From Cyclobacteriaceae bacterium (GTDB taxonomy: Bacteria > Bacteroidota > Bacteroidia > Cytophagales > Cyclobacteriaceae): 64,000 nt of DNA. Shown piece by piece: positions 8,078 through 42,914 of the stretch. Made by a program: the position numbers and the translations under genes. Positions within the stretch are counted from its first letter, which is position 1. Each line of letters starts with the position of its first letter. The stretch is taken from the NCBI GenBank assembly GCA_028284125.1, contig JANQSI010000004.1:186001-250000 (forward strand). Reading direction: 5' to 3'. Under the pieces are notes generated by a model, which worked only from the letters and a program-made list of their open reading frames with translations, did no database searches and was not told where the DNA came from.

Positions 8078-8989
8078 TTATGGATCGTACGCACAGCAGC
8101 AAAGTCCGCCAATATTGCAGCGCAAATGATAGACGAAATTCTCCAGATACTGGGGGCTTTCTTTTTGGTCAAGAGTAATGGCATACCATCGTCGATGCAT
8201 TCCATTTTTTGTTACTGGAACGATGGCAAGTGAATTGTCTTTCAGGTACGGTTCGATGATCCATTTGGCCACTACTTTAATACCCATGCCTGCCTTTACT
8301 AATTCAATGACCGCATCAGTTACCTGAATTTGAGTGACTTTTTTGGGGGAAACGCCAGCCGGAATGAGCAAGTTTCTGAACAAAGAAACAGATTCAAGTG
8401 GATAAGAATGGATGATTACGTTTTCAGTTTCAAAATCCTCGGCATTCACGTATTTCTTTTTTGTCCAGGGATGATCTGCAGGAACAAGTGCATAGACTTC
8501 ATCACGAAACAACTCATGGTACTTCAGTTTTGGCCTGTCTGAAACTTCACAAAGGATAGCCAAATCTATTTTACCATTCAGGACCTGATCTTCCACATCA
8601 CAACTATTATCCAGGATTACTTCAACCTCAACTTTTGGGAATTCCTTTTTAAAATCTATCAGTAATGATGGGAGCCAGTGGTAACAAGTGTAGCATTCAG
8701 TTGCCAGCCGGATTGTTCCAGTATCACCAGATACATATTTTTTTATGGAAAGCTCAGTCATCTCAATGTCATCCAATACGCGCTCTGCTGATTCAAGCAC
8801 CATTTTACCTGCTCCGGTTATGATCAGCTTCTTGTTTACACGGTGAAAAAGTGGAGTTCCCAGCTCGGTTTCAATTTCTTTTAGCTGATGGCTCAAAGCA
8901 GACTGAGATAAAAACAATGTATCTTTTGCCTTCGTGAGACTTTGCGTCTCAGCCACCTCTCGAATCAATTTTAAGTGCCTGATTTCCAT
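8078..8989 (-). CDS. LysR-family transcriptional regulator (MetR-like)
   Basis: N-terminal LysR HTH: MEIRHLKLIREVAETQSLTKAKDTLFLSQSALSHQLKEIETELGTPLFHR; substrate-binding domain. Confidence 0.92.
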   Translation of the reverse strand: MEIRHLKLIREVAETQSLTKAKDTLFLSQSALSHQLKEIETELGTPLFHRVNKKLIITGAGKMVLESAERVLDDIEMTELSIKKYVSGDTGTIRLATECYTCYHWLPSLLIDFKKEFPKVEVEVILDNSCDVEDQVLNGKIDLAILCEVSDRPKLKYHELFRDEVYALVPADHPWTKKKYVNAEDFETENVIIHSYPLESVSLFRNLLIPAGVSPKKVTQIQVTDAVIELVKAGMGIKVVAKWIIEPYLKDNSLAIVPVTKNGMHRRWYAITLDQKESPQYLENFVYHLRCNIGGLCCCAYDP

Positions 8990-9077
8990 ATCTACTATAT
9001 TAGTGAATTTGATTATTATTTAAAAATCAATTCGTATGGCTCATGATTACTAGCTGGATAGAGAAGGAAAAGGAACG

Positions 9078-9108
9078 TTTGAAAATATTATTGATTGGAA
9101 TAATTTCT
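9078..9108 (+). promoter_or_regulatory. candidate Bacteroidota-type promoter for the 9115-9304 ncRNA
   Basis: TTTG (9078-9081), 19-nt spacer, TAATTTCT (9101-9108), approximating the TTTG/TAnnTTTG consensus; homology to the second copy begins about 6 nt downstream. Confidence 0.4.
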
Positions 9109-9114
9109 GAATAT

Positions 9115-9304
9115 ATGCCTACACGTGGCCCCTTGACTCTGAAGCCAAGGGGACGCACTACTTAGGTTCTAAACCTAAATTTGACTTTGAGTTGAAGGTC
9201 GAAACCTTTAATTTTGGTCAAACGTTTTACAAAACGTAGTGCGCTTTTCGCACATGTAAACACAAGACAAAGATGGCAATACCTATAGGTGTTGCTATTT
9301 TTTT
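9115..9304 (+). ncRNA. structured ncRNA candidate, copy 1 (family unrecognised)
   Basis: Homologous to 42061-42250, with compensatory stem changes. Hairpins CCCCTTG/CAAGGGG, TTAGGTT/AACCTAA, AAGGT-CGAA-ACCTT, CGTTTT/AAAACG; long-range helix CGCACTAC/GTAGTGCG; 3' terminator GCAATACC/GGTGTTGC plus U-tract. Confidence 0.75.
9276..9304 (+). terminator. intrinsic terminator of ncRNA copy 1
   Basis: GCAATACC TATA GGTGTTGC hairpin followed by TATTTTTTT. Confidence 0.75.
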
Positions 9305-9443
9305 GAGTCTACTTTTCATCTCCTTTGATGCGTATTCTTCCTCCACCTATTACTGAATTTAATCAACACACTTAAATCAATTCATCCAATTGATGATTCT
9401 TTCTTCATGAAAAGACGTTCGATTTGTACTGAACGAATGACGC

Positions 9444-10376
9444 ATGAAGAATAAGAATTTATTCTTACTAATACTATTGGCCAGTTGTTGGGGACCTTCT
9501 TTCCTCTTCATCAAAATTGCCGTGGCAGAGGTCTCACCGATGCTGGTCGCCGGACTTAGGATTGGTATAGGAGCCCTTGTTCTCATTTTGATTTTGTTCG
9601 TAAAAAAGGAGCGGCTGCCATTGAAGCTTCATTTTTGGAAAAAGGTTTTCATTGCAGGTTTCTTTGCGCAGGCGCTTCCTTTCACCTTAATCAACTGGGG
9701 GGAACAATATGTAGACAGCTCACTAGCATCCCTTTTGAATGGCCTTACACCTCTAAGTACGATTGTCTTGGCCCAACTCCTCTTGAAAGACGAAAAAATG
9801 ACTGGAAACAAAATAGTTGGGGTAGTCCTTGGTTTGGTGGGATTAATGATACTGGTCACTCCAAGTCTCTTGGAAGGCGTGACTGGGACAACCCAAGGAA
9901 TTTTAGCAATAACACTAGCTGCAATAAGCTACGGTGTTGGTTTGGTTTTCATCAGAAAAAACCTGATCAACGTGCCACCAATTCATGCACCGGCAGCACA
10001 ATTACTTTCGGTGACAATCTACCTTCTTCCATTGGCGTTCTTTACAACTCCTGAATTTTCCATTTCTGAACTAAGCCCTCTTGCCATTATCGCGATTGGC
10101 GTCCTTGGAGTTTTTGGAACAGCCATTGCGTTTGTTCTTTATTTCAAATTATTGGAGCGTACGAGTGCCGCCTATGTTTCAACGGTGACGTACTTGATGC
10201 CTATTTACGGGGTTATTCTGGGAATCATATTCCTTGATGAAAAATTGACCGTTTGGATGCTTCTCGGAGCGATCAGTATACTAAGTGGTATTTCGATGGT
10301 GAATAAACGTAAGTCAAAAAGTTTCACTGGATTTGGTAAGCACCTGGACCGGTCTTATTATTCCCATTTTAGGTGA
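9444..10376 (+). CDS. EamA/DMT-family transporter
   Basis: 310 aa, about 10 TM helices, two EamA repeats (ASCWGPSFLFIKIAVAEVSPMLVAGLR; GTAIAFVLYFKLLERTSAAYVSTVTYLMPIYGVILGIIFLDEKL). Confidence 0.9.
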   Translation: MKNKNLFLLILLASCWGPSFLFIKIAVAEVSPMLVAGLRIGIGALVLILILFVKKERLPLKLHFWKKVFIAGFFAQALPFTLINWGEQYVDSSLASLLNGLTPLSTIVLAQLLLKDEKMTGNKIVGVVLGLVGLMILVTPSLLEGVTGTTQGILAITLAAISYGVGLVFIRKNLINVPPIHAPAAQLLSVTIYLLPLAFFTTPEFSISELSPLAIIAIGVLGVFGTAIAFVLYFKLLERTSAAYVSTVTYLMPIYGVILGIIFLDEKLTVWMLLGAISILSGISMVNKRKSKSFTGFGKHLDRSYYSHFR

Positions 10377-41604: not shown

Positions 41605-42042
41605 ATGACACAAAAAATGAAAGCGAAAGCAAACGATAATGTAAAAGTTCATTACACTGGGAAACTCACTTCAGGAGAAGTATTTGATTCATCTGAAGGA
41701 CGAGAACCGCTGGCTTTCACAGTGGGTGGAGGGCAAATGATCAAAGGATTTGATGAGGCAGTTGATGGAATGGAACTTAATGAGAAAAAGACAGTGACCA
41801 TTCCAGCGAAAGACGCTTATGGAGAACATAAGAATGAGTTAATTCAGCAAATACCCAAGAGCAATTTACCTGAAGATATGCAACCTGAAATTGGTCAACG
41901 GTTGGTAGCCACGAATGACCTTGGACATCAAACGCAGGTATCAGTGATTGATGTTACAGGGGAGAACATCACAATAGATGCTAATCACGATCTTGCTGGA
42001 AAAGATCTTGTTTTTGATATAGAATTGGTTGCCATCAACTAG
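41605..42042 (+). CDS. FKBP-type peptidyl-prolyl cis-trans isomerase (SlyD-like)
   Basis: VKVHYTGKLTSGEVFDSSEGREPLAFTVGGGQMIKGFDEAVDGMELNEKKTVTIPAKDAYGEH. Confidence 0.95.
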   Translation: MTQKMKAKANDNVKVHYTGKLTSGEVFDSSEGREPLAFTVGGGQMIKGFDEAVDGMELNEKKTVTIPAKDAYGEHKNELIQQIPKSNLPEDMQPEIGQRLVATNDLGHQTQVSVIDVTGENITIDANHDLAGKDLVFDIELVAIN

Positions 42043-42060: not shown

Positions 42061-42250
42061 ATACCTACATATGGCCCCTGATCAATAAAACCAGGGGACG
42101 CATTGCTTAAGTTCTAAACTTAAATCTGATTTTTAATTCAAGGTCGAAACCTTTAAATTTGATCAAACGTTCTAAAGAACGCAATGCGATTTTCGCATAT
42201 GTAAGCATAAAATAAAAGTAGCAATTCCAGTAGGTTTTGCTATTTTTTTT
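42061..42250 (+). ncRNA. structured ncRNA candidate, copy 2 (family unrecognised)
   Basis: Homologous to 9115-9304. Same helix order with compensatory changes: CCCCTG/CAGGGG, TTAAGTT/AACTTAA, CGTTCT/AGAACG, CGCATTGC/GCAATGCG, ATGCG/CGCAT; terminator and U-tract at the 3' end. Confidence 0.75.
42220..42250 (+). terminator. intrinsic terminator of ncRNA copy 2
   Basis: AGCAA-ttCC-agta-GGtt-TTGCT followed by ATTTTTTTT. Confidence 0.65.
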
Positions 42251-42518
42251 GGTCTACATGTCATCCTCATAGTCACCTTTATTGATCACTCCCGAAGAGT
42301 TGAAAATATATTCTTAACAATCTTTTCAAAAAGAAGTCGAAACTTTTTTGACATGTAACTAGTTTAGTTAATTAAGACTGCAAATTGAAACAGATTAAGA
42401 ACCAGCTTTTTTCCTCTTAGCTTTTTAATTGCTGTCAAAGCCTTAACCCAACACCTCTACCTAGCGATGTGAATTGATTTCATTAGAAATCGTCATGTTT
42501 AATATTAACCACTAGAGA

Positions 42519-42914
42519 ATGCAGTCCACACAGTTAACCAGCCATTTACCTTCAAGTTTCTCCAAATCTGAGAAAGGAGAGAAGACCATCAGGGTAGATT
42601 ATCAACAAGCACTAAATCTTATAACCGTTAGAGGATCTTCGATAGCAGATCATTCCTCTTATAAATATGATGACCTTGTTGACAAAATAGAATCCCACTT
42701 CAAACTCGGAAATTCATTGCAACTCTATTTCAATTTCGATTTTCTGGATAACTCTGCATTAGCATATTTGGGAATAGTCATATCAACACTGAATGAATAC
42801 CATGACAAAGGAAAAATGGTGAAGGCATTTTGGAGCTGCCTCAGTGTAGCTGACAACATGAATGATGAAGGAGAGAAGCTAAAAGCACTTAGCAAATTTG
42901 AGTTCCATCATTAA
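42519..42914 (+). CDS. SiaC-like / DUF1987 regulatory protein
   Basis: LQLYFNFDFLDNSALAYLGIVISTLNEYHDKGKMVKAFWSCLSVADNMNDEGEKLKALSKFEF resembles DUF1987/SiaC. Confidence 0.65.
   Translation: MQSTQLTSHLPSSFSKSEKGEKTIRVDYQQALNLITVRGSSIADHSSYKYDDLVDKIESHFKLGNSLQLYFNFDFLDNSALAYLGIVISTLNEYHDKGKMVKAFWSCLSVADNMNDEGEKLKALSKFEFHH

Follow-up and report, generated by a model that had tools for sequence, protein, structure and literature searches.

A candidate family of structured noncoding RNA genes dispersed through intergenic spacers of a Cyclobacteriaceae genome

Results

The window analyzed here, a 64,000-nt stretch of the source Cyclobacteriaceae genome, contains two copies of an RNA of ~190 nt, both on the plus strand. 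The first, c1 (9115-9307, from the [A/G]TG at the homology start through the end of the terminator U-run), lies between a LysR regulator gene (8078-8989, minus strand) and an EamA transporter gene (9444-10376, plus strand). The second, c2 (42061-42251), begins 19 nt past the stop codon of the FKBP-type isomerase gene directly upstream (41605-42042, plus strand). The two align end to end, as the original prediction had described for 9115-9304 and 42061-42250, and are ~79% identical across the RNA.

Reading along the plus strand of c1, strand A (9120-9127) forms the 5' strand of the closing helix P1, with its partner at 9251-9258, and is followed by hairpin P2, CCCCTTG/CAAGGGG with a variable loop (9129-9152); the fold and two-sided changes support both. 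Strand D (9154-9161) is the 5' strand of the long-range helix P3, CGCACTAC, which is supported by the fold and by covariation, as are the long hairpin P5 (9180-9222, TTTGAC...GTCAAA with an inner AAGGT-CGAA-ACCTT) and hairpin P6 (9223-9236, CGTTTT/AAAACG). Between strand D and P5 sits P4, TTAGGTT-CTA-AACCTAA (9162-9178), the most conserved hairpin according to the alignment and covariation. Strand B (9236-9243, GTAGTGCG) is the 3' strand of P3 and can alternatively form a local hairpin with 9249-9253, within strand C (9249-9258), which serves either as the 3' strand of P1 or as the local partner of strand B. A conserved, A-rich, single-stranded linker follows (9261-9272, CACAAGACAAAG; family form CACAAAACAAAGA), and then an intrinsic terminator with an 11-bp stem, a TATA loop, and a T run (9273-9304), which a simple terminator-pattern scanner did not list. 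The corresponding terminator of c2 is at 42218-42250. Just 3' of the c1 terminator lies a TCTAC tail (9308-9312, plus strand), which is kept in c1-c6 and missing in the copies c7, Ga, and Gb described below, for no obvious reason. A Bacteroidota-type promoter-like sequence, TTTG-N19-TAATTTCT, was read directly ahead of c1 (9078-9108, plus strand), as originally predicted, but it is not a feature of the family: the other copies lack it, and no promoter common to the copies was found among them.

With BLAST, seven dispersed copies were found in the source genome, and a covariance model (R1) built from these returned the same seven from that genome with none in addition. Besides c1 and c2 in the window, c3 is on contig 7, c4 and c5 form a tandem pair on contig 1, c6 is on contig 2, and c7 is on contig 13, with pairwise identities among the seven of 59-79%. 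Among sampled relatives, the covariance model added two copies, Ga and Gb, both in G056, a Cyclobacteriaceae genome of another genus, bringing the known total to nine. Ga is 81% identical to c4, which exceeds any pair inside the source genome (at most 79%). The original prediction, which had proposed a search for further intergenic homologues, thus had two of the seven source-genome copies and two of the nine overall.

Beyond these genomes the RNA was not observed. A second covariance model was positive in two of 397 sampled family genomes, with zero matches in the ~395 others; nine congeners of the source organism lacked the RNA, two 15-bit matches among congeners being at chance level. Homologues were also absent from the sampled order, the sampled class, and the second member of the G056 genus. 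A degenerate pattern fitting all nine copies, searched against one genome per species for 85,462 species, matched only two contigs, both of CALGOB01, an uncultured Cyclobacteriaceae bacterium; the genes around the matches are those found at Ga and Gb, so these contigs represent the G056 genome. The large genome searches used strict filters, by which distant relatives may be lost, and the family is partly sampled, so the absence applies to the sampled genomes. Carriage by phage or plasmid was dropped as an explanation: plasmids gave no match to the RNA, three patterns found none in viral contigs, and a Chryseobacterium phage gave one weak match of ~46 bases to the terminator region.

The predicted fold is shared across the family. 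Fold energies of c1 and c2 lie far below those of dinucleotide shuffles (z of -7.3 and -6.8). All nine copies follow one layout: an [A/G]TG at the homology start (ATA in c2), P1, P2 with a free loop, and the long-range P3 around P4 (GGTTCTAAACC), P5 with its internal loops, and P6; the conserved A-rich linker and the terminator with its T run lie 3' of this core. The shared terminator of the original prediction is present in all nine copies, with a U-run and, in six of them, a GNRA loop. In the nine-row alignment, which was fitted to the covariance model and is therefore biased toward structure, 89.8% of cells were paired and 27 of 52 modelled pairs had two-sided changes (7/8 in P1 and 6/8 in P2). 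The covariation score was 0.361, compared to a shuffle mean of 0.172 and at most 0.113 in slid controls; none of 500 shuffles attained the observed pairing or covariation, and every slid control was also lower. An independent MAFFT alignment of seven copies gave the same covariation picture.

The paired substitutions first described between c1 and c2 are present in P2 (CCCCTTG/CAAGGGG to CCCCTG/CAGGGG), P4 (TTAGGTT/AACCTAA to TTAAGTT/AACTTAA), P6 (CGTTTT/AAAACG to CGTTCT/AGAACG), and P3 (CGCACTAC/GTAGTGCG to CGCATTGC/GCAATGCG). The change from TTTGAC/GTCAAA to TCTGAT/ATCAAA does contain the paired substitution, but c2 also carries an uncompensated C.A at the base of P5. Covariation, proposed at the outset as a check, was well above both the shuffled and the slid controls. 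As judged from sequence comparison, these compensatory changes show selection for base pairing.

Part of the core can pair in a second way. In each of the nine copies, strands B and C are able to pair locally as a hairpin of 5-9 bp. The per-copy shuffle p lies between 0.002 and 0.44, and it is the shared position across the nine copies that supports this hairpin. P2 can also be extended by strands A and D. In partition-function folds, evaluated over rough strand windows, the long-range state was found for c1, c2, c3, c5, and Ga and a largely local state for c4, c6, and Gb, with c7 intermediate. The terminator stem takes no part in the alternative pairing. In this folding model, the central helices are arranged as a four-way junction whose branch point can migrate, with strands A, D, B, and C able to re-pair, and such a mobile junction may allow the core to switch between two conformations; a cellular role for both states is our inference from the model.

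Rfam 15 (4227 models) gave no match at gathering thresholds for the window or the other copies, in line with the original view that the RNA is not tmRNA, 6S, SRP, RNase P, or a named riboswitch. Relaxed scans returned sub-threshold matches only, the best being sbrA, at 23/45 bits, on the terminator part. Among the papers searched, none dealt with noncoding RNA in Cyclobacteriaceae.

Helices on a transcribed strand are expected to hold more G-U than A-C. This was observed in the terminator only (12 G-U cells vs 1 A-C, with U8 and GNRA loops). In the core, A-C occupied 29 cells in 20 column types and G-U 16 cells in 8 column types, with 8 of the 16 representing one fixed U-G pair. The core excess of A-C has a two-sided p of 0.036 by column, and the contrast between core and terminator has a Fisher p of 0.0003 on cells, which are non-independent. 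Fold z-scores were alike on both strands, with minus-strand folds equally good and the minus-strand consensus energy slightly better (-87.0 vs -83.3). Of the original proposal that selection acts on RNA structure, the base pairing stands, but which strand of the core folds is less certain than first assumed.

An unlikely reading, though one to be taken seriously, is that the functional folded core is the minus strand, with an RNA that starts in the linker and runs leftwards while the plus-strand terminator serves a neighboring gene. The slightly better energy suits it, and the 29 A-C and 16 G-U cells become an excess of G-U over A-C on that strand; the variable departures in P4, the P5 base, and P6 are all A-C on the plus strand, save one fixed U-G pair, although the overall A-C count takes in cells of P1-P3 where alternative pairing is possible. 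The linker holds a minus-strand TATCTTTG-like box ~7 nt before P1, with at least 5 of 6 positions of TAnnTTTG matched in all nine copies as read from the alignment, and there is conserved sequence past the plus-strand terminator in c1-c6. Yet a correctly spaced -33 TTTG is absent, the 3' end of the minus strand has no consistent U-run terminator, and the z-scores do not separate the strands. Plus-strand transcription is favored because the terminator lies directly 3' of the core in all nine copies, and we take it as stronger evidence for that strand than the core asymmetry. The terminator is clearly plus-strand; the A-C excess of the core runs counter to the plus-strand reading.

To describe how the copies came to be where they are, the flanking genes were compared with the nearest congeners at five loci covering six copies (c1, c2, c3, c4/c5, and c6); the gene upstream of c7 was not found in congeners. 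At all five, the congeners have the flanking genes around the corresponding spacer but no RNA in it. In G006, the LysR and EamA genes are adjacent and RNA-free. At the c2 site, the RNA stands in place of the congeners' own FKBP terminator, and at the c6 site, the spacer after the malate dehydrogenase (MDH) terminator is ~50 nt in the congeners and ~300 nt longer in the source genome. No protein-coding gene arrived with the RNA at the five loci. On this comparison, the RNA is a recent gain at each of them. The c4 and Ga copies, from different genera, are sisters in the tree with 96/96 support, so the source-genome copies are not one clade. Given the near-absence from relatives and these cross-genus sisters, transfer between lineages followed by local dispersal would be the simplest history, simpler than near-universal loss of several ancestral copies, which is a formal alternative to transfer.

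Several further observations concern these spacers. The c1 spacer (window 9000-9443) is variable: there, G005 and G007 have a coding-like stretch, gamma-glutamylcyclotransferase-like by eye, which the source genome lacks; G006 has neither this stretch nor the RNA. Ga comes after an apparently interrupted tyrosine recombinase gene and before two small genes of unknown family (L027:58-2451). A 23-nt palindrome, CACGGAAG[T/A]AACTTCCGCGCTAG, occurs at 15 places in the source genome, often clustered, with no occurrence of the reversed control pattern; three copies flank the tandem c5 and c4 (G000:C1:292298, 292645, 293011), and other places are at L067-L072. It resembles REP-type repeats and has a CTAG foot, and it was rejected as a general insertion site, being a separate dispersed repeat that is missing at the other copies. 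Past c4, imperfect 42-nt tandem repeats reading as STDRIVASTYDLAESTDKIVASTDNLAKSTD (L005:2184-2310) are seemingly the remnant of a repeat-protein gene; the repeats that congener G006 has in this spacer are different ones.

A mobile but non-autonomous DNA element, whether MITE-like or a single-stranded DNA hairpin, would also fit the recent gains of single units at five loci, the patchy distribution, and the cross-genus sisters. Such an element would require its fold at the DNA level, to transpose or recombine, and its transcription would be incidental. The recombinase gene beside Ga and a core without plus-strand G-U preference point the same way, as does an inverted AACCGAT/ATCGGTT near the insertion ends of c6, seen at that insertion only. 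We nevertheless regard this as improbable. Terminal inverted repeats or target duplications common to the copies were not seen, the other copies have no adjoining transposase, every copy carries a well-formed transcription terminator, and the copies are strongly diverged yet retain their pairing, unlike decaying dead elements. The integron attC core sites RYYYAAC/GTTRRRY were also sought by eye in the alignment, and no pair was found at conserved positions. A more speculative proposal, to which we give little weight, is a protein-less mobile RNA unit of ~200 bp, in which the four-way junction in its minus-strand form, either RNA or single-stranded DNA, would serve as the substrate of its own copying or recombination; the unit would spread into Bacteroidota spacers, each insertion bringing a terminator for the gene ahead.

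The genes next to the copies are diverse: LysR/EamA at c1, FKBP/SiaC at c2, DUF2911 at c3, TetR and CBS/PPK2 at c4/c5, MDH/PPK1 at c6, S41 peptidase/LOG-type at c7, a tyrosine recombinase at Ga, and BNR-repeat/SpoIIE at Gb. No common class of same-strand downstream gene was found across the copies. Several copies lie near phosphate or phospho-signaling genes, namely SiaC, PPK1, PPK2, and the SpoIIE phosphatase (window 42519-42914; L006:1803; L004:2385; L026:2591); this proximity is probably chance, because in congeners, which lack the RNA there, SiaC and PPK1 have the same upstream neighbors. A short reading frame opening at the 5'-boundary [A/G]TG was rejected, as the predicted peptides vary in length and sequence between copies in the alignment, by eye.

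A terminator immediately after an aptamer-like multi-helix core, alternative pairings within that core, and a same-strand gene within a few hundred bases downstream at c1, c2, c3, c6, and Ga are what a cis-acting leader, whether riboswitch or attenuator, governing the downstream gene through the terminator would present. We rejected this as very unlikely on the neighboring genes and their orientation: the downstream genes are unrelated, and those at c4/c5, c7, and Gb are on the opposite strand, which excludes cis control there, while congeners have the same genes without the RNA and the terminator stem lies outside the alternative pairing. No more likely is a 3'UTR or terminator module that stabilizes and ends upstream mRNAs without functioning as an independent RNA, which the starts of c2 and c7 (19 and ~14 nt past a stop codon) and the replaced FKBP terminator would suit, but the upstream gene is directed away at c1, c3, and c4/c5, leaving no upstream mRNA there, and a 150-nt covarying core exceeds the needs of a terminator.

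Discussion

On balance, and with modest confidence, we interpret these loci as stand-alone genes of a new structured noncoding RNA family, RNA-only units that have spread horizontally and act in trans. The ~190-nt RNA is probably non-coding, as far as its sequence allows this to be judged, and a trans-acting, multicopy regulatory small RNA would be its most economical function. Under this interpretation, the RNA genes would have reached intergenic spacers as RNA-only units, through horizontal transfer and dispersal, and would often have settled just past a stop codon. Plus-strand transcription of each unit would begin at a local promoter or enter by read-through of the upstream gene, and the folded core of the unit would be stable. 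The RNA would then act in trans, most likely by pairing with mRNAs or by binding a protein through the conserved linker and the P4/P5 loops. The junction strands A, D, B, and C may switch between two conformations, and many copies could supply dosage or diversification, by analogy with the multicopy small RNA families of Bacteroides.

Multicopy trans-acting sRNAs such as Qrr and LhrC act through short accessible seeds. The RNA described here resembles them in having several paralogous, self-terminated copies per genome, dispersed and standing alone, but it is mostly structured. Qrr and LhrC are named as multicopy sRNAs in the study of FopS, which has 14 copies of ~65-70 nt in B. thetaiotaomicron, with a 5' seed, R1', and is conserved throughout Bacteroidaceae (PMC11697453). 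The FopS copies are dispersed intergenic paralogues, one of them 3'UTR-derived, and the authors suggest phage-mediated spread (PMC11697453). Compared by description, the two families share dispersed paralogous intergenic RNAs in multiple copies in one Bacteroidota genome; the Cyclobacteriaceae RNA differs in its length (homology and fold indicate ~190 nt), its multi-helix covarying core, and its presence in 2 of 397 sampled family genomes. A second B. thetaiotaomicron sRNA family of six members, BTnc020 and others, lies beside transposases or invertases (PMC11697453). It is likewise a multicopy RNA tied to mobility genes, and is set apart by description, since the Cyclobacteriaceae RNA adjoins a recombinase at one of nine copies (Ga). 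Like the orphan structured RNAs of the Rfam motif class, the family is covarying, intergenic, and of unknown function, but it matches no Rfam model at gathering and was recently dispersed as single units.

Multicopy small RNAs are only now being recognised in Bacteroidota. A large, strongly structured RNA with recent dispersal at five mapped sites, shared across genera, offers a clean system, in which the RNA-free sites of relatives allow comparisons that bear on how an RNA gene moves without protein cargo and why a genome holds seven copies. The covariance model and the short list of loci provide ready experimental targets.
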